Source: a candidate division KSB1 bacterium
GTDB taxonomy: Bacteria; Zhuqueibacterota; JdFR-76; DREG01
NCBI GenBank assembly: GCA_022566355.1
Contig: JADFJB010000044.1
Span: 1 to 33,301 of the forward strand
Reading direction: 5' to 3'
Length of the DNA stretch: 33,301 nt
Notes under the pieces: model-generated
Databases searched by the model: none
What the model saw: the letters and a program-made list of their open reading frames with translations, nothing else
What the model was told of the DNA's origin: nothing
Shown: positions 15,423 through 28,067 of the stretch, one piece after another
Numbering within the stretch: position 1 is the first letter of the stretch
Layout of the letters: every line of letters starts with the position of its first letter
Translations under genes and position numbers: made by a program

Positions 15423-17623
15423 ATGAAAACAAAAAATTGTTTCCGTATTCTTGCATTCATGCTGCTATTGATTTTACCGGGACTTGTCCTGGGGTAAATT
15501 CCCAAAACCATGAGTTACCAGGGTGTCTTGATCGATGCGGAAGGTAATCCGGTGCCAGATGGCAACGTCGTGCTAACCTTCAAGATCTACGACACCGCCA
15601 CAGATGGTGAGTCGCTCTACCAAGAGACACAAAACGAAGTGAATGTGGCCGGCGGCATCTTCAGCGTCATCATCGGCAGCACAAATCCCTTGAATCTACC
15701 CTTTGACAAGAAGTATTGGCTTAGCATAACCGTAGGTGCGGAAGGTTCTGAGCTTACTCCAAGGATAGAACTGACATCCTCGGCGTATAGTTTGAATGCC
15801 CAGTCGATAGTGGATAATGCCGTGAGCACAGCAAAGATTCAGGATGGCGCGGTTACTGACGCAAAGATCGCCGCCGGTGCGGTTGACGCCGATAAAATTG
15901 CCGATAACGCGGTCACCAGCGAAAAGATCGCCGGGGGTCAAGTGGTTAAAAGCCTCAATGGTTTGACCGATGATGTAACGATTGAAGCCGGGAATAATGT
16001 GACGATTACTCAGAGTGGCGATACATTGACCATAGGTGCAACAGGCGGAGCCGGGACCGGAGACGGCCATTCACTTGATGCCGCCGATGGCGACCCGACG
16101 GATGTGGTTTTTGTGGATAATGACGGTAATGTATTCATTGGCATCACAAGTCAAGAGTTCACTTCAGTTAACGGTACCACTAACATAAGGGCCCCCTCGG
16201 CATTGATATCAACTCCAACCAGGACTTTGCACATAAATACACCCCTGCAGGCATCATGGACGGAGGGGTAATCAAAATCACAGTCCCCACTAGTTGGAGC
16301 TCCCCTGGTGGCGATCATGAAACCGAAGTTAGAGATGATGGCATCACCACAACTGGTAATATCGTCCTTCAAGATGGCATTGGCACAAGTGAATATAATA
16401 TGTCCAACTCCGACGGAGTCATTAAGATTACATACGGATCTGGCGGACCCACTACCGAAGGGAAAATCGAAATCGCAGTTCCGACTAGTTGGAGCTCCCC
16501 TGGTGGCGATGATGAAACCGAAGTTAGAGAGGATGGCATCACCACCACTGGTAATATCGCCCTTCAAGATGGCAATGACACAAGTGAATATAATATGTCC
16601 AACTCCGCCGGGGTCCTTAAGTTTACATACGCATCTGGTACACCCCATACCGAAGCTACCGAAGGGACAATCGAATTCGCATACGCCGCTAATTTTCAAG
16701 CCCCCATCACAGCTGAAGGTGGCATTAAAATCAGCAACAAAGGAGACGAAAACGCTCCCGCCGGGACGGTCAGTGGGGACATAGAGGTGGTTGGTGAAGT
16801 CTTTGCCAAGAGTTTTCATGTGGTAGATTTCGTTGGCAATCAACTAAGCAATTTCTTTTCGGATGGCAGTTCATCGCAGGAAGGAAAGGCTACCTTTAAA
16901 AGTGGCATAAAAATGACGAGGGGAAGTCTTGAATTCCCTGATGGAACAAAACAAACAACTGCGGGAGGAGGAGACAACAAGGGTGACATGACGGTCAAGG
17001 GTGAGATTCTTGCCAAAAGCTTTCACGTGGTCAGCTTTGATAGTTCGGGAAACGTTACCGATACTCTCACCAGTTTCAATTCAGATGGCACTTCACTGCA
17101 CAAGGGGAAGGAGACCTTTAAGGAGGACGTCGTAATCTTTGGTTCCTTATCTGTCCAGGGCTTCATAGAAAAAACCGGTGGAGGTTTCAAAATTGACCAT
17201 CCGATTGATCCCGCCAACAAATATCTCAATCACGCCTACGTTGAAAGTCCGGACATGATGAATGTCTACAACGGTAATGTTATCCTGAATCCTGATGGTG
17301 AAGCGATTGTGGAACTGCCCGAGTGGTTCGAAGCCCTCAACAAAGATTTTCGTTATCAACTCACTTGCATCGGTGGCTTTGCTCCAGTATTTTTCGCTGA
17401 AGAGATCTCAAACAACCGCTTCAAGATTGCAGGTGGCAAGTCTGGGATGAAGGTTTCATGGCAGGTAACCGGCATTCGCAAGGACGCTTAAGCAGAGCAG
17501 AATCGAATGCAAGTGGAAGTAGAGAAACCAGACCACGAACGTGGCAAATATCTGTATCCAAAGACTTATGGTATGCCGGAAACAAAAGGGATAAACCCTA
17601 AACTAATAATCGAAAATAAATAG
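15423..17623 (+). pseudogene. Broken gene for a large exported head/stalk surface protein
   Basis: Reading from the ATG with GGAGG upstream gives a signal peptide (MKTKNCFRILAFMLLLILPG), then TAA at 15495 in the same frame as the mature protein, which continues IPKTMSYQGVLIDAEGNPV. In relatives this junction reads QIPKTxSYQG, so a CAA-to-TAA change is likely. Around 16184-16200 the frame shifts by the GCCCCC run, from NGTTNIRAP to LGIDINSNQDFAHKYTPAG. A second in-frame TAA at 17489 follows GIRKDA, after which homology resumes as AEQNRMQVEVEKPDHERGKY until TAG at 17621. The stalk has DAKIA/DKIADNAV repeats and the C-terminus has the conserved HAYVESPDMMNVYNGNV domain. Shorter frames restarted at 15510 and 16256 are the visible pieces. 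Confidence 0.78.
16265..16654 (+). repeat. Two tandem 195-bp (65-residue) repeats inside the surface-protein gene
   Basis: The unit starting near 16265 recurs at 16460 with only scattered differences, each encoding PTSWSSPGGDxETEVRxDGI followed by TTTGNIxLQDG and SEYNMSNSxGV. A third, partial and diverged unit starts near 16664 (GTIEFAYAANFQ). The pattern suggests recent in-gene duplication of a beta-rich stalk module. Confidence 0.8.
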
Positions 17624-19272: not shown

Positions 19273-19746
19273 ATGGCTATAAAGAAAGAGATTGAAAAAA
19301 TAATAAAAGAATTTCGTGAAGTCAAAGTGGGCAAACGCAAATCCTTTACCCTTGCCAATAGCAGATCCTTTACCCTGGACAATAGCAGATCCTTTACCCT
19401 TGCCAATAGCAGACCCTTTACCCTGGACAATAGCAAATCCTTTACCCTTGCCAAAAGCAAATCCTTTACCCTTGCCAAAAGCCAGGAAAAACCGATCTAT
19501 AAAATCCCCGAGCCAAAAAAGATGGCAAACGTTAAAATAAAACTTGATTTTAAGATACGTAAATTGCCGCCCCATTCTGTGCATATTTATGTGGAGGATT
19601 ATGGTAGAGGTGAAAACGGAGAAGTGCAATTAAGTCCGGAAATAGAAGACGAAAAAGAACTTGATAACTATATTGATTTTCTTATTGCGGAATTGTTGCA
19701 AGTGCGAGACGAGGGGAGAAGAAAGTTTCGACAGGCAAAAAATTAG
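19273..19746 (+). CDS. Hypothetical protein with six 8-residue repeats
   Basis: A 157-residue acidic/basic soluble protein of no family I recognise. Residues 1-22 are a charged helix (KKEIEKIIKEFREVKVGKR). Residues 24-71 are six tandem copies of an octapeptide of the form SFTLANSR / SFTLDNSR, encoded by a 24-bp minisatellite. Residues 75-157 are a non-repeated part ending in a helix (IDFLIAELLQVRDEGRRKF). A weak AGGAAT precedes the ATG. The opposite strand is also open across the repeat, so coding on this strand is supported mainly by the non-repeated ends and by the close spacing to the ORF upstream. Confidence 0.5.
   Translation: MAIKKEIEKIIKEFREVKVGKRKSFTLANSRSFTLDNSRSFTLANSRPFTLDNSKSFTLAKSKSFTLAKSQEKPIYKIPEPKKMANVKIKLDFKIRKLPPHSVHIYVEDYGRGENGEVQLSPEIEDEKELDNYIDFLIAELLQVRDEGRRKFRQAKN
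19342..19485 (+). repeat. 24-bp minisatellite, six copies
   Basis: Six units of 24 bases in perfect register, consensus TCCTTTACCCTTGCCAATAG plus CAGA. Units alternate between CTTGCC and CTGGAC in the middle for the first five copies, which suggests expansion by a 48-base double unit. The unit length keeps the reading frame. Confidence 0.95.
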
Positions 19747-20243
19747 TCTGTGTGTCAAGTATATAATCACCCACCTTTATTTATTCTTACCAACGCCAAA
19801 AACCCTCGACAAATCAAAATATCCCTTAAATTTATCCCAATTGAGAATATCGTTCTTTTTTAACATTGTGTATTAACACAATCCTAATCTAACTACAACT
19901 TAAGATGACCAGCCGCAACACCAAGCGTGGATCATTCAGGTTCTGCGGATAACAAACCCGGCGCGGTTGACGTGTGCTCTTTTTAAAAGTAATAAATCTG
20001 AGCAAATTCATTTTCTAAAATTTATTTGTTTGATTGATCAATTTGTTTTGTTACTTTTACTATCACACGTTATCTAAATTAAAAAGAAAAAGGAATGCTA
20101 ATTCGTATCTGACCGAAAATCATCAATGTCATCCCTGCAATCTTTAGGCCGGAATCTCGTTATTTCAGGCTGGAGATTCCCGCTAGAAACATGCGGGAAT
20201 GACAGAAAAGGGTATTTTCGTTCAAATTCTAGTTAAGAAAATC
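19747..20243. other. Intergenic region before the arsenosugar cluster
   Basis: About 500 AT-rich bases without a gene. It contains a small perfect hairpin (ATTGTGT, ATTA, ACACAAT at 19865-19882) and a dispersed inverted-repeat element at 20128-20203. The promoter of the arsenosugar cluster should be here. No tRNA or riboswitch was recognised. Confidence 0.5.
20128..20203. repeat. Dispersed inverted-repeat intergenic element (copy 2)
   Basis: Starts GTCATCCCTGCA and ends TGCGGGAATGAC, imperfect inverted ends (10 of 12). The interior GGAGATTCCCGCTAGAAACA resembles REP-like elements common between genes of related genomes. It shares its outline with the element at 7072-7176. An apparent upstream ATG for the next gene (20199) lies inside this repeat and is therefore unlikely to be the real start. 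Confidence 0.7.
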
Positions 20244-21599
20244 ATGACAACCTATTCAGTCATTATCCCAACCTGGAACGAAGAAGAAACCATTGGCGAC
20301 TGCATCAACAGCATTCGAACTGCAAATCAAGAAACTGAAATTTTATTGTCTGACGGTGGTAGTTGGGACAAAACAATCCGAATTGCCAAAGAGCTGAACT
20401 GTAAAGTGATTTCTTCTCCAAAAGGCCGTGGCATCCAAAGCAATGTCGGGGCTTCATGTGCCTCAGGCTCTATCCTTTTATTTTTACATGGAGATACACA
20501 ACTTCCGCCTGATGCTTTTGAGATCATTGATAAACAATTTGAAGATCAGTCAGTACAAATCGGCACCTTCCGCATTTCATTTGATCACAATCACTGGTTA
20601 TTGAATTTCTATGCCTGGTTCACCCAATTCGATTTTATTTTCTCACGTTTTGGAGATCAATGCATTATCGTCCGGCGCAGGTTTTTTGATAATCTTGGTG
20701 GATTTCCCAAATGGAAATTATTCGAAGATGTCGACTTCCTGCGAAAAGCACGAAGAGTTACAAAAATACATTCGTTGCCGGCAAAAGTAAAAACCTCCGC
20801 CCGTCGCTTCTTAAAGAACGGCATTTTGCGCCAGCAAATCCAAAACGGTTGGCTTATTCTATTGTATTTTTTAGGATTTGGCGGCAATCGATTATATTTG
20901 AAATACGAAAAGATAGAAGCGCTTCAGCAAGGGACATCATTGATTGTCTTCGCACGCTATCCGCGCCAGGGAAAAGTGAAGACCAGGCTCGCAAGCACAA
21001 TCGGTAACTTATTGGCTGCAGAATTTTATAGAATCTGCTGCGAGCATATCTTTGCAATCTGCAGAAAATTAAAACCAGAGATGACAATTAATTTATTCTA
21101 TGCTGACAGCGAAGATGCCGAATCGATAAGAAATTGGCAAGGATCGGATTTTTATCTTTTACCGCAAATAGGCGATGATTTGGGTGAGAGAATAAAAAAC
21201 GCTTTCCAAACAATTTTTGATCGAGGTACTGAAAAAGCCATTATTATAGGAACAGATGTTCCCGAGCTATCCGGAGAGATTATCAAACAGGCAGAAAACG
21301 CACTTGATATCCATGACCTGGTTATTGGTCCCTGCCCGGATGGTGGATATTATCTTTTGGGAATGAAATCGGTTAATAAAGAGTTATTTAATGGGGTAAC
21401 TTGGAGTACAGATCGTGTTTTTGAGGAAACAATGAAGAAAGCAAAGGTAAACAAATTATCTGTTTATGAGTTGCCGATATTTGCAGATATCGACACCGAA
21501 GACGAACTGCTGCAATGGGCAGATACAAACAAAACTCATAAGAACCAGGCAATGATTCAATTTGTGAAAAAGCTTAGATCACCTGTGGCGGAAGGATAA
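20244..21599 (+). CDS. Fused glycosyltransferase (TIGR04283 family 2 + TIGR04282/DUF2064)
   Basis: A 451-residue two-domain protein. Residues 1-220 are a GT-A family 2 glycosyltransferase of the TIGR04283 type: VIIPTWNEEETIGDCI, LLSDGGSWDKT, KGRGIQSNVGA and LHGDTQLPPDA with the DxD-like site. Residues 230-430 are a DUF2064/TIGR04282 domain: LIVFARYPRQGKVKTRLA, GDDLGERIKNAF, GTDVPELSG and GPCPDGGYYLLG. The two domains are usually separate neighbouring genes. This pair is a marker of arsenosugar and related gene clusters, where it is proposed to add or shape the sugar. The start at 20244 is used because the longer frame begins inside a repeat element. Confidence 0.9.
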   Translation: MTTYSVIIPTWNEEETIGDCINSIRTANQETEILLSDGGSWDKTIRIAKELNCKVISSPKGRGIQSNVGASCASGSILLFLHGDTQLPPDAFEIIDKQFEDQSVQIGTFRISFDHNHWLLNFYAWFTQFDFIFSRFGDQCIIVRRRFFDNLGGFPKWKLFEDVDFLRKARRVTKIHSLPAKVKTSARRFLKNGILRQQIQNGWLILLYFLGFGGNRLYLKYEKIEALQQGTSLIVFARYPRQGKVKTRLASTIGNLLAAEFYRICCEHIFAICRKLKPEMTINLFYADSEDAESIRNWQGSDFYLLPQIGDDLGERIKNAFQTIFDRGTEKAIIIGTDVPELSGEIIKQAENALDIHDLVIGPCPDGGYYLLGMKSVNKELFNGVTWSTDRVFEETMKKAKVNKLSVYELPIFADIDTEDELLQWADTNKTHKNQAMIQFVKKLRSPVAEG

Positions 21600-21604
21600 T
21601 ACCT

Positions 21605-22399
21605 TTGAACTTAAAAGTGACTCGAAACTTATTTTTTATTTGTTCAATGACGCTCTTGTCCAGCTATGCTTATGCCAATGGATCAAATTTGATATTCACG
21701 AACTTGCTACAAAAACATGTTCAAAACGGTCTTGTGAACTATTCAAGGTTATGCTCAGATCCAAAGCTCAACGAATATATCAATCAGCTCTCGGAGACGA
21801 ATCCGGATACGATCAGGGATAGAAACGATTTATTGGCATTTTGGATCAACGCTTATAATGCATTCACATTAAAAGTGATCTGCGATAATTATCCACTCAA
21901 ATCCATTAACGATTTACACTTTGGCGGGCTGGTGATAGGAACAGTTCTCAAAAAGACGGTTTGGGATAAAAATTTCATAGAGATCGACAAAAAGAAATAC
22001 TCGTTAAATAAAATTGAGCATGAAATCATCAGAAAAAAATTTAATGACCCCCGCGCTCACTTTGCCCTGGTTTGTGCGTCTCTCGGGTGTCCGTCACTTT
22101 TAAACGAAGCGTTCGTCGGAGACAAATTAGACGAACAATTAGAACAGCAAGGGAACCGATTTCTGCAAGATTCAACTAAAAATGTTTTCGATATCGAAAA
22201 AAAGATAGCCAGGATTTCTAAAATATTCGATTGGTTCAAGAATGATTTTGGGAATAACAAAAAGGAAAGGCTTCTCTATTTATCCAGGTTTTTACCTGAG
22301 GAAATTGCAATTGAGATTCGGCTGAATCCGGAACAATGGAAAGTGAAACACACCAAGTACAATTGGAATTTAAACGAAATAAAGGAAGCAACAAATTAA
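21605..22399 (+). CDS. DUF547 domain protein, exported
   Basis: A 264-residue protein starting with TTG, with GGAAGGA seven bases upstream inside the end of the previous gene. A signal peptide covers residues 1-25 (ending AYANG). The DUF547 core follows: HVQNGLVNYSRL, NDLLAFWINAYNAFTLKVIC, and HFALVCASLGCPSLLNEAF with conserved Cys residues. DUF547 shows distant similarity to papain-like/transglutaminase folds, but no reaction is established for this type. Its tight coupling to the glycosyltransferase fusion indicates a role in the same pathway, probably in the periplasm. Confidence 0.88.
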   Translation: MNLKVTRNLFFICSMTLLSSYAYANGSNLIFTNLLQKHVQNGLVNYSRLCSDPKLNEYINQLSETNPDTIRDRNDLLAFWINAYNAFTLKVICDNYPLKSINDLHFGGLVIGTVLKKTVWDKNFIEIDKKKYSLNKIEHEIIRKKFNDPRAHFALVCASLGCPSLLNEAFVGDKLDEQLEQQGNRFLQDSTKNVFDIEKKIARISKIFDWFKNDFGNNKKERLLYLSRFLPEEIAIEIRLNPEQWKVKHTKYNWNLNEIKEATN

Positions 22400-22419
22400 T
22401 GATCCGAAGGAGAAAATAA

Positions 22420-22755
22420 ATGCACTATTTTGAGTCCGATGACCTAAAAAAATTTGGTGAAGTTGGAAAATTCAGTGGTGATTTGATGAAAAAATTCTTT
22501 ACATATTATAATGCCGCAACCAGTGAAGAAGGAGCGTTATCAAAAAGAGAAAAGGCATTGATTGCATTAGCCGTGGCACATTCAAAACGATGCCCATATT
22601 GCATTGACGCATTTACCACTGCTTGCCTGGAGGCCGGCTCGAACCCCGAACAAATGACCGAAGCCATTCACGTGGCCAGTGCCATGGAGGCTGGGGTTAC
22701 ACTGGTGCATGGCGTCCAGATGCAAAACGTGATGAAGAAAACCGGTGCACTATGA
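22420..22755 (+). CDS. Arsenosugar-associated carboxymuconolactone-decarboxylase/AhpD-like protein
   Basis: A 111-residue CMD-family protein with the redox motif CPYCIDAF (CxxC, residues 58-61) followed by HVASAMEAGVTLVHG. It matches the small peroxidase-like proteins found beside ArsS and ArsM. CMD/AhpD proteins are thiol-based peroxidases or disulfide reductants, so it may keep arsenical thiols or the enzymes reduced. AAGGAG lies eight bases before the ATG. It sits 20 bases after the DUF547 gene in the same operon. Confidence 0.9.
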   Translation: MHYFESDDLKKFGEVGKFSGDLMKKFFTYYNAATSEEGALSKREKALIALAVAHSKRCPYCIDAFTTACLEAGSNPEQMTEAIHVASAMEAGVTLVHGVQMQNVMKKTGAL

Positions 22756-22792
22756 TTATTATTAACCATAAAAGGTGATATTTGTGTTTTCT

Positions 22793-22875
22793 GTCATTCT
22801 GATCCCGCCTTGGTGGGAGAAGAATCTCCATCTAAACATATTTTGCCCTTCGACTCCGCTCAGGGCGCTACTTCA
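22793..22875. repeat. Dispersed intergenic repeat element (copy 3)
   Basis: Starts GTCATTCTGATCCCGCC with a small CCCGCC-TT-GGTGGG hairpin (22804-22817), then AGAAGAATCTCC, and ends with CTTCGACTCCGCTCAGGG. These words are typical of short repeats scattered between genes of FCB genomes. It separates two genes of one cluster, so it may act as an attenuator or simply be tolerated there. Confidence 0.6.
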
Positions 22876-22932
22876 CCCTTTTTGCAGTTTAAACATTTTC
22901 TAATATGTTATTTGAACAACTAGGAGACATGA

Positions 22933-23961
22933 ATGGGTGAACCAATAATCTTAGCGCCTGAAATCGAGGCTCACGAAGATTCCAAATTCAATTTTAAGAA
23001 AATAATCAGAAACCATAAGTTAGACCTCAAACCAGTTTCGATTGAGACTTTGCAGGTGAATATTACCAAACTTTGCAACCAGGCCTGTTTGCATTGCCAT
23101 GTTGACTCCGGTCCCAAACGCACTGAGCAAATGGACCTCAAGACAGTCGATCGTTGCCTGGAAATTCTGCAAAACCATGATTCGATTAAAAACCTGGATG
23201 TAACCGGGGGCGCTCCGGAATTGAGTCCTTATTTTGATTATATGGCTATTGAAGCCCGCAAAATGAACAAACACGTAATGGTCCGGCATAATCTTACCGT
23301 AATCGCGGATGGCAATCCCCAAACCGGAGAATCTAAAGATTATTTACCCGAATTTTTTGCCCGGCATCAACTTGAAGTTATTTCTTCACTACCCTACTAC
23401 CAGGAATATTTCACCGATAAACAGCGCGGCAAAGGTGTCTTCGAAAAAAGTATCGAAAGCTTGAAATTGCTCAATGAACAGGGATATGGAAAAGAAAATA
23501 CAAATTTAAATTTGAACCTGGTTTACAATCCCGTCGGTGCTTTTCTACCAGCTGCCCAGGAAAGTTTGGAGGCTGATTTCAAACGAGAATTACTGGCCAA
23601 GTTTGGGATCGTTTTTAACAACCTATACGTCATCACAAATATGCCCATCCACCGTTTTAAGACCCAGTTAAAACAACTTGGCGGTTATGAAGAATATATG
23701 ATAAAACTGGTTAACGCTTTTAATCCGGTCGCTGCTGAGGGGGTAATGTGTCGTTCTCTAATAAGCGTCAGTTATGATGGTAGGATTTTTGATTGTGATT
23801 TTAATCAAATGCTTGAGATGCAGGTTTATAGTGGCAATCTTAGTACGGTCTTTAATTTCGATTACGATGATTTGATGAGCCGTAATATCAGGTTTGCCGC
23901 TCATTGCTTCGGTTGCACAGCCGGCGCCGGCAGCAGTTGTGGTGGGGAAATAGCAAGCTGA
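22933..23961 (+). CDS. arsS: Arsenosugar biosynthesis radical SAM protein ArsS
   Basis: A 342-residue radical S-adenosylmethionine enzyme. The 4Fe-4S motif is C48, C52 and C55 in KLCNQACLHCHVDSG. Downstream are DVTGGAPELSP and NLVYNPVGAFLPAAQ, both typical of the ArsS/TIGR04167 group. The C-terminus HCFGCTAGAGSSCGG (C325, C328, C336) is the second Cys cluster; some homologues carry selenocysteine in this region, but here the codons are ordinary cysteine. ArsS is proposed to attach a 5'-deoxyadenosyl group to dimethylarsenite, the first sugar-forming step. AGGAG lies just before the ATG. Confidence 0.93.
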   Translation: MGEPIILAPEIEAHEDSKFNFKKIIRNHKLDLKPVSIETLQVNITKLCNQACLHCHVDSGPKRTEQMDLKTVDRCLEILQNHDSIKNLDVTGGAPELSPYFDYMAIEARKMNKHVMVRHNLTVIADGNPQTGESKDYLPEFFARHQLEVISSLPYYQEYFTDKQRGKGVFEKSIESLKLLNEQGYGKENTNLNLNLVYNPVGAFLPAAQESLEADFKRELLAKFGIVFNNLYVITNMPIHRFKTQLKQLGGYEEYMIKLVNAFNPVAAEGVMCRSLISVSYDGRIFDCDFNQMLEMQVYSGNLSTVFNFDYDDLMSRNIRFAAHCFGCTAGAGSSCGGEIAS

Positions 23962-23973
23962 AACTAATGCTAA

Positions 23974-24309
23974 ATGGATTGGTCTTCGCTTAAAGATTGG
24001 TTTTTGGAGCTCGGTGAGCAATATGGAGTCAACCCGATTATTTTTGGCGCAATATACGTCGGTGCAATTCCATTTTTTACATTATCCATAGCCTGGTTGG
24101 TCAATAACTTTCGTAAGAAAAAATCGATTGTTCTTCCAGCCCTGTTGGCCGGTTTTTTCTTTATTTCGGCCTACCTGTATCTCATCATTGTTGGTAAGAA
24201 CGTTCCATTTTGGGTTTATTCTTTTGTAGCTTTTCTTGTTATTTTTAGCACCTGGTCAACTATTAAGAAAGTAAAATCAAGAATTCATGAGGAGGCGAAT
24301 GAAGTATGA
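23974..24309 (+). CDS. Small membrane protein of the arsenosugar cluster
   Basis: A 111-residue protein with three hydrophobic segments (about residues 21-44, 50-73 and 76-95) separated by the basic stretch NNFRKKKS. I do not recognise a named family. It starts 12 bases after arsS and overlaps the flavoprotein gene by 11 bases, so it is translationally coupled to both. A membrane anchor or transport accessory role is possible but not shown. Confidence 0.75.
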   Translation: MDWSSLKDWFLELGEQYGVNPIIFGAIYVGAIPFFTLSIAWLVNNFRKKKSIVLPALLAGFFFISAYLYLIIVGKNVPFWVYSFVAFLVIFSTWSTIKKVKSRIHEEANEV

Positions 24310-25783
24310 TTATGACATGATCGTTATCGGCGGCGGCGCTGGTGGTCTAACCGCAGCTGGAATGTCAGTTTCATTTGGTGCCAAGACCGCATTGATCGAA
24401 GCCAAAAAATTAGGCGGCGACTGCACGTGGTATGGCTGCGTCCCAAGTAAAACCTTGTTGAAAGCCGCAAAAATTGCCCACTATTTCAAAACAGCAAATC
24501 GTTATGGATTAGAAGCCTCAGAAGTTAAATTTGATTTTGCTAAAGTGATGGAACATGTTCATCAAACCCAGGAAGAAGTTTATAGAGATGCGGATGACCC
24601 TGCAATTTATCGGAAAATGGGGATCGATGTCCTGGCCGGGACTGCAAAATTTCTCGACAATCATAGAATTGAATTCGATGAAAATGGTGCTACTTCCAGG
24701 CAGTTGTCGTCAAGATACTTCGTAATAGCAACCGGAAGTTCGGCTGTTGTTCCGCCCATCGAAGGTCTTTCGCGTGTCGATTATTTAACAAATGAAACCC
24801 TATTCAACTTATCCAAACTTCCATCAAAATTGATTGTTATCGGAGCCGGTCCGATCGGTATCGAAATGGCCCAGGCATTCATTCGATTGAATTCTTCGGT
24901 AACCGTCATCAATCGGGCAGAAAGAATATTAACAAGAGACGATCGCGAACTAGCTGTCATCCTGCAGGAAAAGCTTCAAGGAGAAGGAATCCGGTTTGTC
25001 TTAAAGTCTGCGGTAAAAAGCATTAACCAAAAGAACGGAACTATCTCTGTTATTACAGAAGATTCATCCAAACAGACGACTTTAACGATTGATGGCGATA
25101 CTGTCCTGTTATCTGTCGGTCGCAAAGCGAACATCGCCAATTTAGGTTTGCAGGAAGCTGGAATTGAATCCAACAAAAGGGGAATTGTGGTTAATGATAA
25201 ATGTCGGACTTCAGTAAAAAATATTTATGCTGTCGGAGATGTGGCCGGTAGATTCCAGTTCACACATTTTGCTGAACACATGGCAAAGGTGGCTACCAGC
25301 AATGCACTATTACACTTCCCCATGACGCTGGATTCCAAACACATTACCTGGTGTACGTTCACCGAACCGGAGATGGCCCATGTCGGTGCCTCTGAAAATG
25401 AATTAAAGCAAAAAGGAATATCTTACGAGCTTTATAAGTTTCCCTTCAATAAAATTGATCGAGCCATTACTGAGAACGAAAAAATCGGATGGATCAAAGT
25501 TTATGCAAAAAAATTCAATGGCAAAATTTATGGAGTCAATATTTTGGGAACTAACGCCGGTGAAATGATTGGTGAGTATGCCTTAGCCATGCGAAATGGG
25601 GTTACCCTGAGACAAATGGCAGATACGATCCATCCTTATCCCACTTATGTTTTGGGAAATCGGCGGGCTGCGGACCAATGGTATGTAAGAAAGCAATCGA
25701 GATCGTTTGTATGGCTGTTGCAAAAACTATTTCACTATCATGGCCAATTACCGGATACAAGTGATCCGCAAAGGATAATTTAA
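24299..25783 (+). CDS. MerA-like FAD-dependent disulfide oxidoreductase
   Basis: A 494-residue flavoprotein of the class I pyridine-nucleotide disulfide oxidoreductases. It has the FAD motif IVIGGGAGGLTAA, the redox disulfide C42-C47 in LGGDCTWYGCVPSKT, the NAD(P) motif IVIGAGPIGIEMAQ and YAVGDVAG. At the position of the usual catalytic His-Glu pair it reads IHPYPTYVLGNRRAA, with Tyr as in mercuric reductase and no Glu. It lacks an N-terminal heavy-metal domain and the C-terminal vicinal cysteines of MerA. The start at 24299 is used because GAGGAGG precedes it. In this cluster it may reduce an arsenical or a thiol; that is inference. Confidence 0.9.
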   Translation: MKYDYDMIVIGGGAGGLTAAGMSVSFGAKTALIEAKKLGGDCTWYGCVPSKTLLKAAKIAHYFKTANRYGLEASEVKFDFAKVMEHVHQTQEEVYRDADDPAIYRKMGIDVLAGTAKFLDNHRIEFDENGATSRQLSSRYFVIATGSSAVVPPIEGLSRVDYLTNETLFNLSKLPSKLIVIGAGPIGIEMAQAFIRLNSSVTVINRAERILTRDDRELAVILQEKLQGEGIRFVLKSAVKSINQKNGTISVITEDSSKQTTLTIDGDTVLLSVGRKANIANLGLQEAGIESNKRGIVVNDKCRTSVKNIYAVGDVAGRFQFTHFAEHMAKVATSNALLHFPMTLDSKHITWCTFTEPEMAHVGASENELKQKGISYELYKFPFNKIDRAITENEKIGWIKVYAKKFNGKIYGVNILGTNAGEMIGEYALAMRNGVTLRQMADTIHPYPTYVLGNRRAADQWYVRKQSRSFVWLLQKLFHYHGQLPDTSDPQRII

Positions 25784-25810
25784 TTAGAAGGTTGTATTTG
25801 GAGATTTAGT

Positions 25811-26926
25811 TTGAGTTTATTGTTCATCGGTATTATAATCGGAGTACTTTTTCTCGCCTACGCCAATGGCGCCAATGATAATTTCAAAGGTGTAGCAACG
25901 CTATTTGGCAGTGATACAACAAATTATAAAACTGCAATTATCTGGGCAACGATAACCACTTTTGCCGGCAGCATTTGCTCTATCTTTCTGGCCAAAATAC
26001 TTCTCAATAAATTTACTGGCAAAGGGTTGGTGCCTGATTCAGTGGTCACTTCACCGGAGTTTGTTTTTGCTGTGGTAATCGGAGCAGCGGCAACTGTTTT
26101 GTTTGCAACATTCATCGGCTATCCTATTTCCACAACCCATTCTATCACCGGGGCATTGGTCGGTAGCGGGTTGATGGCATCATCGGCCGGGGTGGACCTG
26201 GCTAAACTGGGCAGCACATTCTTTCTGCCATTATTATTAAGCCCTTTCATCGCGTTAACCCTGGCAGCCATGCTATATATCCTTTTTCATTTCGTCCGTT
26301 TAAAGCTTGGCATCACTTGCCAATCGATTGCTTTCATTCGCAAAGAGACCGAAGCCGTTCCTTCAGTGGTTCAATCATCCGGTGTGGCAATAAATACTTC
26401 GACAAAATTAAAATTCGGCATCTCGGAGGGAAACGGACAGGAAAAGTATTCAGGATCGTTGCTGGGTATTAGATTTCAAAAAATGGTGGATGTTGCACAT
26501 TTTATCAGTTCCGGCGCTGTTAGTTTTGCCAGAGGATTAAATGACACACCGAAGATCGTCGCGTTGTTATTGGGATTACAAGTGATGGGAATGCCATCGA
26601 GCATGATGATTGTCGCTATTGCCATAGCTCTTGGAGGACTTCTAAACGCTAAAAAAGTAGCGATTACAATGAGTAAAAAAATCAGCACTTTTAATGATGG
26701 ACAGGGACTAACCGCTTTGCTCGTTACCAGTTTCCTGGTCATCTTTTCAAGCGTGTTGGCCTTTCCGGTCTCGACGACGCATGTATCCGTCGGATCAATA
26801 ACCGGAATCGGATTGGTTAATCGAACTGCTAATATGGGAATGATCTCAACCATTGTCCTGTCTTGGGTTCTTACTTTACCAATGGCTGCCGGGATCAGCG
26901 CTATGACCTATTTAATAATCAGTTAA
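25811..26926 (+). CDS. pit: Pit-family inorganic phosphate transporter
   Basis: A 371-residue polytopic inner-membrane protein starting with TTG, with TTGGAGA eight bases upstream. The two inverted halves each have the family signature: AYANGANDNFKG (residues 17-28) and GAVSFARGLNDTPKI, plus repeated YPISTTHSITGALVG and FPVSTTHVSVGSITG. Pit carriers move phosphate with cations and usually admit arsenate. It lies between the flavoprotein and arsM genes. It may supply arsenate to the pathway or restore phosphate; sequence cannot tell. Confidence 0.93.
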   Translation: MSLLFIGIIIGVLFLAYANGANDNFKGVATLFGSDTTNYKTAIIWATITTFAGSICSIFLAKILLNKFTGKGLVPDSVVTSPEFVFAVVIGAAATVLFATFIGYPISTTHSITGALVGSGLMASSAGVDLAKLGSTFFLPLLLSPFIALTLAAMLYILFHFVRLKLGITCQSIAFIRKETEAVPSVVQSSGVAINTSTKLKFGISEGNGQEKYSGSLLGIRFQKMVDVAHFISSGAVSFARGLNDTPKIVALLLGLQVMGMPSSMMIVAIAIALGGLLNAKKVAITMSKKISTFNDGQGLTALLVTSFLVIFSSVLAFPVSTTHVSVGSITGIGLVNRTANMGMISTIVLSWVLTLPMAAGISAMTYLIIS

Positions 26927-26947
26927 TTTTGAAAAAACAATAATGCA

Positions 26948-27044
26948 GTCATTTCGAGGAGTTTACGACGAGAAATCTTTTAATCCATACGAGAATAAAT
27001 TGATTGAGATAAGATTTCTCCACGCTTCGCATGTTCGAAATGAC
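26948..27044. repeat. Dispersed inverted-repeat intergenic element (copy 4)
   Basis: Perfect 10-base ends GTCATTTCGA (26948-26957) and TCGAAATGAC (27035-27044), with a second perfect inner pair GAGAAATCTT (26970-26979) and AAGATTTCTC (27011-27020). Non-coding, 97 bases. The outline matches short palindromic elements common in Bacteroidota-like genomes. Confidence 0.8.
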
Positions 27045-27095
27045 ATTCTGTTAATTTTGCAAATGTTCATTTAGTTAATTTATTAAGGAGTTGGA

Positions 27096-28067
27096 ATGGA
27101 AACCTATTTGGAAACCACAAAGAATGTGTATAAAGAAGCAGCTTTAAATCCGGATAAAGGACTTTGCTGCACAACCTCCCCTATTTGGCAGCTGCCCGGA
27201 CTATCAATTCCCCAAAAGATGCTGGATATGAATTACGGCTGCGGCAGTACGGTTCACCCGCGTGATCTGGTAAATAATCCCACGATCTTGTATGTCGGCA
27301 TTGGCGGCGGCATGGAACTGCTGCAATTCTCTTATTTTAGCCGCAAAAAAAACGGCGTCATTGGCCTGGATGTAGTCGATGAAATGGTAACGGCTTGCCG
27401 GGAAAATTTTCAAGAAGCGCAGCGGCTCAATTCCTGGTTTGAATCCGATTTTATCGATATTCGTAAAGGAGACGCACTATCGCTTCCTATTGAGGATGAG
27501 TCTATTGAAGTGGCGGCGCAAAACTGTTTGTTCAACATATTTACTGAAAATGATCTCATACAAGCCCTGGCGGAAATGTATAGAGTTTTGCAGCCACGAG
27601 GAAGATTGGTGTTATCGGATCCGGTTTGCGAGGCGGCAATACCCGATCATTTGAGAAGCGACGAAAGACTTCGGGCGTTATGTCTCACCGGCGCGCTGCC
27701 TCTGAACGACTACATCAAACGAATAACGGATATTGGCTTCGGCACGATAGAAGTGCGGGCAAAACGCCCATACCGTGTTCTCGATCCAAAAAAATACGAT
27801 ACCGATGAATTGATCTATATCGAAAGCGTTGAAATTTGCGCCATCAAAGATCCCATGCCCGATGACGGCCCCTGTGTATTCACCGGAAAAACCGCTATCT
27901 TCTTTGGCGATGACGAATATTTGGATGACCACAAAGGCCACATCCTGGTTCGGAACCAACCCATAGCCGTATGCGATAAAACCGCCGGAGACTTGAATGG
28001 ACTCAGCCGGGATGATTTATTGATTACGGATTCAACTTATTTTTATGATGGCGGGGGGTGTTGTTAG
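27096..28067 (+). CDS. arsM: Arsenosugar biosynthesis arsenite methyltransferase ArsM
   Basis: A 323-residue SAM-dependent As(III) methyltransferase. Arsenic-binding cysteines are C24-C25 in KGLCCTTSPIW and C49 in NYGCGSTVHPRDL; the SAM loop is ILYVGIGGGMELLQF (64-78), and NCLFNIF follows. The C-terminus ends in a Cys pair (GGGCC). This long form, with the LCCTTSPIWQLPGL start and a DDGPCVFTGKTAIFFGDDEY domain, is the arsenosugar-cluster type rather than a detoxification-only ArsM. It would make dimethylarsenite for ArsS. AAGGAG precedes the ATG. It is the last gene of the cluster and is separated from it by a repeat, so it may have its own promoter. Confidence 0.93.
   Translation: METYLETTKNVYKEAALNPDKGLCCTTSPIWQLPGLSIPQKMLDMNYGCGSTVHPRDLVNNPTILYVGIGGGMELLQFSYFSRKKNGVIGLDVVDEMVTACRENFQEAQRLNSWFESDFIDIRKGDALSLPIEDESIEVAAQNCLFNIFTENDLIQALAEMYRVLQPRGRLVLSDPVCEAAIPDHLRSDERLRALCLTGALPLNDYIKRITDIGFGTIEVRAKRPYRVLDPKKYDTDELIYIESVEICAIKDPMPDDGPCVFTGKTAIFFGDDEYLDDHKGHILVRNQPIAVCDKTAGDLNGLSRDDLLITDSTYFYDGGGCC

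Follow-up and report, generated by a model that had tools for sequence, protein, structure and literature searches.

Eight codirectional genes at positions 20244-28067 of the window (the whole 33,301-nucleotide stretch of DNA that was analysed) very probably form a cluster of the arsenosugar type, as the initial annotation had proposed: ArsM and ArsS occur here with conserved partners, and every core family of the cluster exceeds its curated NCBIfam cut-off. As a whole, the locus is probably best explained as a Calditrichota arsenosugar biosynthesis cluster whose product would be finished by phosphorolysis, activation and transfer; the host, initially annotated as an FCB-type bacterium, does belong to such a lineage, the Calditrichota. 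The eight genes look like an almost full set for converting toxic arsenic into arsenosugars, which rank among the major forms of arsenic in seaweeds and seafood. To our knowledge, only the first two steps of the pathway, those of ArsM and ArsS, have been assigned so far. The cluster type is already known and NCBIfam names its families; what is added here is a nucleoside phosphorylase (PNP or MTAP) and a CofC-like TIGR04282 protein as candidates for the unassigned steps.

The sequence itself demonstrates which genes are present, to which families they belong, that they co-occur with arsS and that two of the families are fused. All eight open reading frames are intact, and their ends coincide with, or lie within a few codons of, the limits initially annotated:

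20244-21599, + strand: TIGR04283 GT2-type glycosyltransferase (N-terminal) fused to a TIGR04282/DUF2064 CofC-like nucleotidyltransferase (C-terminal), from NCBIfam and PDB matches
21605-22399, + strand: DUF547 protein (PF04784) with an N-terminal hydrophobic signal-like segment and a TTG start
22420-22755, + strand: CMD/AhpD-like protein with a CPYC motif, arsenosugar-associated and peroxidase-like (TIGR04169)
22933-23961, + strand: ArsS, a radical SAM enzyme with a DUF3641 C-terminal half, in the Cys form (not Sec), from TIGR04167 and motifs
23974-24309, + strand: three-helix membrane protein of 111 aa, overlapping the next gene by 23 bp
24287-25783, + strand: MerA-like/PRK06370-type flavoprotein disulfide oxidoreductase with CX4C and no C-terminal CC pair
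25811-26926, + strand: Pit/PHO4 family phosphate(-arsenate) transporter (PF01384), TTG start
27096-28067, + strand: ArsM, an arsenosugar-type As(III) SAM methyltransferase of 323 aa with a GGCC tail (NF038099)

From 5' to 3', the intergenic gaps are 5, 20, 177, 12, -23, 27 and 169 bp, and the identical eight-gene order recurs in a genome of the host's own family (G005, locus L046). An Rfam search for regulatory RNA gave no match, and promoter and terminator scans returned counts at or under shuffled expectation.

ArsS enzymes couple dimethylarsenic to a 5'-deoxyadenosyl group. The ArsS of the window scores 415.2 bits against TIGR04167 (NCBIfam cut-off 300), carries the CX3CX2C motif at Cys48/52/55 and further cysteines at C-terminal positions 325, 328 and 336, and has the expected C-terminal end, HCFGCTAGAGSSCGG. 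ArsM scores 558.1 bits against the AsSugarArsM family NF038099 (NCBIfam cut-off 400), with conserved cysteines at 24, 25, 49, 144 and 196, and belongs to a subfamily common to Pseudanabaena and Bacteroidota operons. Its initial description as a long form was not sustained, as 323 aa is an ordinary length for this arsenosugar subfamily.

The fused protein starts with the ATG at position 20244 and is 451 aa long, in a frame open from 20199. Both families assigned initially are present on this single polypeptide (TIGR04283, 234.7 bits, cut-off 182; TIGR04282, 202.4 bits, cut-off 134; NCBIfam), but as two fused domains rather than as alternative names for one glycosyltransferase. The N-terminal half matches GT2 enzymes in the PDB, while the closest solved relative of the C-terminal half is 3cgx, a 'putative nucleotide-diphospho-sugar transferase' (E = 5e-37). 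At the sequence level, TIGR04282 showed neither the fold nor the motifs of a glycosyltransferase, the name it was given; by these sequence comparisons it is a DUF2064/CofC-like nucleotidyltransferase that has been misnamed, with similarity to CofC itself (TIGR03552, 34.5 bits; PF01983, 24.7 bits). For the glycosyl-transfer step, a better reading is predicted nucleotidyl activation plus GT2 transfer, both carried out by a single fused protein. The fusion was found in four genomes, the others being represented by loci L046, L055 and L087.

Among the accessory genes, the CMD protein (TIGR04169, 164.2 bits, cut-off 120) agrees with its initial description as a peroxidase-like protein with a CxxC motif, present as CPYC. 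DUF547 (PF04784, E = 9e-27, Pfam) retains the invariant residues N82, Y84, E138, D148, R150, H152, C157 and C162; its AF2 model has a pLDDT of 89, and comparison with the PDB gave neither a significant fold match nor a solved relative by sequence. The flavoprotein (Pyr_redox_2, E = 4e-64, Pfam) has a redox CX4C at Cys46/51. It is MerA-like, as initially labelled, but was rejected as a mercuric reductase since its TIGR02053 score of 392 bits falls below the cut-off of 454 and no Cys occurs beyond residue 356, and hence no C-terminal pair. The reduction step initially attributed to it has weak support at most. Its tie to arsS rests on Burkholderiales, Acinetobacter and Pseudanabaena loci, in which arsS has a counterpart of it as a neighbour, either joined to TVP38 in one protein or encoded next to it. 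The three-helix protein matched nothing in Pfam or NCBIfam and has only two other homologues among those found, in L046 and in Pedobacter locus L066 (where it adjoins the FAD gene); a general role has little or no support. The Pit gene (PF01384, E = 4e-60, 204 bits, gathering score 33.7, Pfam) also adjoins arsS in L046, L110, L114, L259, L262, L287, L289 and L290.

Conservation of the neighbours with arsS, on which the initial annotation had staked its proposal, was surveyed by comparing open reading frames proximal and distal to arsS at 86 loci. CMD lay within 4 kb of arsS in 53 of the 86 loci and was distal in none. Proximal to distal counts were 29:0 for TIGR04282, 25:0 for ArsM, 19:1 for TIGR04283, 11:1 for DUF547 and 10:0 for PNP/MTAP; enrichment at the named loci was not significant for the FAD protein (4:3) or the three-helix protein (2:0). 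Conservation is upheld for CMD, ArsM, the glycosyltransferase, the nucleotidyltransferase and DUF547; Pit and the flavoprotein show it weakly, and the three-helix protein to a negligible degree. ArsS itself is common: among the genomes sampled, 122 of 297 from Bacteroidota and 106 of 349 from Burkholderiales encode it.

Cyanobacterial arsM-arsS arsenosugar loci are known from Synechocystis and Nostoc. The cyanobacterial locus on Pseudanabaena plasmid pPg_02 (L256) shares with the window the ArsS and AsSugarArsM families and a 'mercuric reductase'-type flavoprotein adjoining them, but that stretch carries two TVP38 genes, which the window lacks, and has no DUF547, glycosyltransferase, nucleotidyltransferase, CMD or Pit gene, whereas the window has these, the first two enzymes as a fusion, and a three-helix gene. 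An Acinetobacter portensis plasmid (L262) and Burkholderiales loci (L287, L289 and L290) share ArsS, an FAD oxidoreductase, DUF547, TIGR04283, TIGR04282, an ArsM-like methyltransferase and Pit with the window, and differ in having an MTAP gene, a TVP38-flavoprotein fusion and separate glycosyltransferase and nucleotidyltransferase genes. Unlike the window, L262, L289 and L290 also encode a fatty-acid-hydroxylase-family protein, the ArsM proteins of L262 and L289 (the two tested) fall outside NF038099, and TIGR04169 is absent from the Acinetobacter and Burkholderiales loci read. Bacteroidota operons (L294-L298) share CMD, ArsS, AsSugarArsM (tested for L294), DUF547, glycosyltransferase and nucleotidyltransferase genes, but the latter two are separate, a PNP gene and often a rhodanese gene are linked, and no Pit or MerA-like gene lies within the operon.

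Two phosphorylase subfamilies appear to have been recruited to one gene set. In Bacteroidota operons ordered CMD-ArsS-TIGR04282-PNP-ArsM-DUF547-TIGR04283, a PNP-type phosphorylase lies directly 3' of TIGR04282, abutting or overlapping it. The corresponding gene set of Burkholderiales and Acinetobacter is bordered by a phosphorylase of the MTAP type, as mtnP on the Acinetobacter plasmid (with ArsS, TVP38-FAD, DUF547, TIGR04283, TIGR04282, methyltransferase and Pit) and in a TIGR04282-TIGR04283-MTAP arrangement on a B. glumae plasmid. With profiles seeded from phosphorylases picked for being arsS-linked, the best PNP match lay within 10 kb of arsS in 12 Bacteroidota genomes, and 10 of the 11 top MTAP-profile matches in Burkholderiales lay 0.1-12 kb from arsS, against expectations of ~0.8 in each case that ignore shared ancestry; assuming four PNP/MTAP genes per genome weakens this linkage to P ~1e-4 and 1e-3. 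The linked MTAPs retain TD(Y/F/W)D(C/S)W, and the linked PNPs have T-D but lack the His that housekeeping PNPs have at the 5'-OH site. The missing His is not specific, because His-less PNPs also occur in ArsS-negative Bacteroidota, and the PNP type was rejected as an ArsS-specific marker, its association in Calditrichota (11/13 versus 30/69, p = 0.007, uncorrected for phylogeny) being too weak alone. Counting against a phosphorylase step, most arsS loci lack a linked phosphorylase and the window contains none, with no PNP or MTAP within ~12 kb of arsS; the PF01048 genes of the host lie on contigs C84, C35 and C45 and none on the window's contig (C44), and the unlinked candidate on C84 (genome G000) is of the type found in 30 of 69 ArsS-negative Calditrichota genomes.

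These observations suggest a route to which we give close to an even chance. Pit would let arsenate in along with phosphate, the cell would reduce it, ArsM would generate dimethylarsenic and ArsS would attach this to the 5'-deoxyadenosyl group. A nucleoside phosphorylase, arsS-linked in Bacteroidota and Burkholderiales and unlinked in the host, would then remove adenine to give 5-deoxy-5-dimethylarsinoyl-ribose-1-phosphate, which the CofC-like domain would activate and the fused GT2 domain would transfer to a glycerol-type or lipid acceptor, with CMD, DUF547, the flavoprotein and the three-helix protein as accessories. Our searches of the open literature, outside which most primary arsenosugar papers lie, found no paper tying arsenosugars to MTA and none joining them with glycosyltransferases plus radical SAM enzymes; in one open paper mentioning arsenosugar and phosphorylase, PNP figures as an arsenate reductase.

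MTAP and MTA/AdoHcy nucleosidases clear 5'-deoxyadenosine, so the linked phosphorylases might instead salvage 5'-deoxyadenosine or MTA from abortive ArsS turnover, easing product inhibition while the arsenical is depurinated otherwise. Linkage in only ~1/10 of ArsS-positive genomes would suit such a role, but we consider it unlikely: adenine loss is required for the product, the PNP gene has TIGR04282, which it overlaps, on one side and ArsM on the other instead of keeping to ArsS only, and on the B. glumae plasmid MTAP is next to TIGR04283/TIGR04282, with arsS several kb away. The same overlap fits consecutive steps on the sugar and argues against an equally improbable scheme, in which not the arsenosugar phosphate but the aglycone (an acid resembling phosphoglycerate or glycerol phosphate) is what TIGR04282 activates, and TIGR04283 then joins both. 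Such a substrate is suggested by the likeness to CofC, since CofC enzymes (as CofC/FbiD) activate phosphoglycerate-like acids, and known arsenosugars bear glycerol, phosphoglycerol or sulfonate aglycones; GT2 enzymes, however, mostly use NDP-sugars as donors. Least probable is a methylation and detoxification cluster that ends at dimethylarsinoyl-adenosine, its glycosyltransferase, nucleotidyltransferase and DUF547 genes serving another envelope pathway. Several Calditrichota relatives (L041-L045) have just CMD-ArsS-ArsM, and the arsenosugar product is a prediction from genes, but TIGR04282, TIGR04283 and DUF547 are concentrated beside arsS in several phyla.

The nearest solved relative of the arsS-linked Acinetobacter MTAP is RSFP (PDB 4glf; 443 bits, nearly full length), an MTAP from an Antarctic soil metagenome (PMC3561333) that has been studied solely for its binding of rhodamine B, with no genomic context stated in the relevant passages. 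If the phosphorolysis, activation and transfer route is true, this structure may model the phosphorylase, and the two NCBIfam 'glycosyltransferases', TIGR04283 and TIGR04282, would acquire distinct roles. TIGR04282 and the phosphorylase linked to it in other bacteria would supply arsenosugar steps that have no assigned enzyme, giving these steps named, expressible candidate genes. More generally, and with slightly less than even confidence, bacterial arsenosugars may be finished by a dedicated phosphorylase, recruited independently from PNP and MTAP, a nucleotide-activating CofC-like enzyme and GT2 transfer.

The gene cluster that the initial annotation assigned to arsenosugar biosynthesis is present: eight codirectional genes span 20244-28067 on the plus strand, with intergenic gaps of 5, 20, 177, 12, -23, 27 and 169 bp, in order. 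Its core families exceed the curated NCBIfam cut-offs, namely TIGR04283 and TIGR04282 (fused in a single polypeptide), TIGR04169 (the CMD protein, with a CPYC motif), TIGR04167 (ArsS, in its Cys form, with CX3CX2C) and NF038099 (AsSugarArsM). Pfam matches were to DUF547, PHO4 and pyridine-nucleotide disulfide oxidoreductase, and the 111-aa three-helix membrane protein received no family assignment from NCBIfam or Pfam profiles. Two gene descriptions required revision. The predicted glycosyltransferase does feature a GT2 domain, but this is fused to a CofC-like nucleotidyltransferase domain (TIGR04282, also kin to 3cgx). The flavoprotein retains a redox CX4C and is MerA-like at superfamily level only, as it scores below the NCBIfam MerA cut-off and lacks the MerA C-terminal Cys pair. 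The DUF547 protein (21605-22399) gave a confident model (pLDDT 89) and features invariant Cys, His, Asp and Arg residues, with no significant match in the PDB by sequence or fold. Repeats and repeat-like sequence were also observed in the window:

16261-16650, tandem duplication of 195 nt (88% identical) within a long ORF (16256-17491)
19308-19499, tandem 24-nt repeats, translated as FTLANSRS-like units of 8 residues within an ORF of 157 aa directly upstream of the cluster
20150-20200, 22780-22900 and 27000-27060, spacers at or inside the cluster with look-alike stretches of the TGTCATTC/GGAATGACA type, which may represent a repeat dispersed in the genome

ArsS exceeded its cut-off in only 13 of 82 genomes of Calditrichota, the phylum assigned to the host. 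One member of the host family (G005) encodes the same eight functions in identical order, with Pit as two ORFs, and more distant relatives within Calditrichota feature CMD-ArsS-ArsM only. Neither Acr3 nor Grx-type ArsC was found in the window genome (4.6 Mb, 98.5% complete), where two LMW-phosphatase family genes are possible arsenate reductases.

To assess which neighbours are conserved with arsS, ORFs within 4 kb of the gene were set against those at greater distance, for 86 arsS genes drawn from many phyla. This supported an association for CMD (53 near:0 far), TIGR04282 (29:0), ArsM (25:0), TIGR04283 (19:1), DUF547 (11:1) and PNP/MTAP phosphorylases (10:0), but the other proposed members, Pit (4:0, p = 0.1), the flavoprotein (4:3) and the three-helix protein (2:0), were not significantly enriched. 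Annotated plasmids provide independent views of this neighbourhood. An Acinetobacter portensis plasmid encodes ArsS, a TVP38-flavoprotein fusion, DUF547, TIGR04283, TIGR04282, a methyltransferase, an inorganic phosphate transporter, mtnP and a sterol desaturase; of the window components, only the TIGR04169 CMD and three-helix proteins are missing from it, and it has an MTAP in addition. A Pseudanabaena plasmid encodes TVP38, a "mercuric reductase", ArsM, TVP38 and ArsS. The Acinetobacter plasmid (pJNE5-X3_NDM-1; near-complete cluster at L262:8001-16843) is mobilizable and, by its name, carries NDM-1. Three IMG/VR contigs filed as viral (L128, L129 and L130) encode ArsS relatives, with 37-47% identity across partial matches, which may be phage-borne or contaminants.

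The best-supplied arsS loci encode a PF01048 nucleoside phosphorylase, which is missing from the window. In Bacteroidota (ArsS in 122/297 genomes), the best PNP match lies within 10 kb of arsS in 12 genomes, versus ∼0.8 expected, and in Burkholderiales (ArsS in 106/349 genomes) 10 of the 11 best MTAP-profile matches lie 0.1-12 kb from arsS, versus ∼0.8 expected; both figures ignore phylogeny, derive from profile seeds picked for their arsS linkage and weaken once all PNP/MTAP paralogues are allowed. Fetched Bacteroidota operons read CMD-ArsS-(rhodanese)-TIGR04282-PNP-ArsM-DUF547-TIGR04283, where the TIGR04282 gene overlaps or abuts the PNP gene, and Burkholderiales loci read ArsS-[TVP38-FAD]-DUF547-TIGR04283-TIGR04282-DUF3047-ArsM-Pit with MTAP adjacent. 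That one gene set carries two phosphorylase subfamilies suggests that selection acts on the reaction rather than on one particular protein. Several of the Bacteroidota operons place a rhodanese-domain protein after ArsS and before TIGR04282 (L294:7298-7864, L297:6719-7267); it could conceivably provide a sulfur step, perhaps towards thio-arsenosugars.

A TD(Y/F/W)D(C/S)W motif is retained in the arsS-linked MTAPs. In the linked PNPs, the base site features T-D, and the His found in housekeeping PNPs at the 5'-OH site is missing, as would be expected for a 5'-modified nucleoside; this loss is not specific to them, as it also occurs in unlinked PNPs from genomes negative for ArsS. By its residues, the better of two PNP candidates in the window genome lies on another contig (C84) and is of a type widespread in genomes without ArsS. 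PNP genes resembling the arsS-linked type stand in tandem pairs in ArsS-less Bacteroidota (G280:C1:654534-656164, G143:C11:532372-534025). The nearest solved structure to the arsS-linked Acinetobacter MTAP (L262:15366-16226) is RSFP (4glf), an Antarctic soil MTAP investigated for its rhodamine B binding, which may be an arsenosugar-pathway enzyme.

In the most likely route, ArsM generates dimethylarsenic and ArsS couples it to the 5'-deoxyadenosyl moiety, both as known for these enzymes; PMC12159101 summarizes how a radical SAM enzyme adenosylates arsenic. Phosphorolysis would then strip adenine to give a sugar-1-phosphate, with the phosphorylase acting in trans in the window genome. TIGR04282 would convert this into a nucleotide-activated sugar, which TIGR04283 would transfer to an acceptor; fusion of the two domains in four genomes supports their acting consecutively. 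A fatty-acid-hydroxylase/sterol-desaturase family gene (OlsE-like, NCBIfam) adjoins arsS at L056, L057, L065, L066, L119, L289, L290 and L262, and a PlsC-type acyltransferase gene lies beside it at L074, L082 and L099. These recurrent genes hint at lipid acceptors at such loci and at a possible link to arsenolipids.
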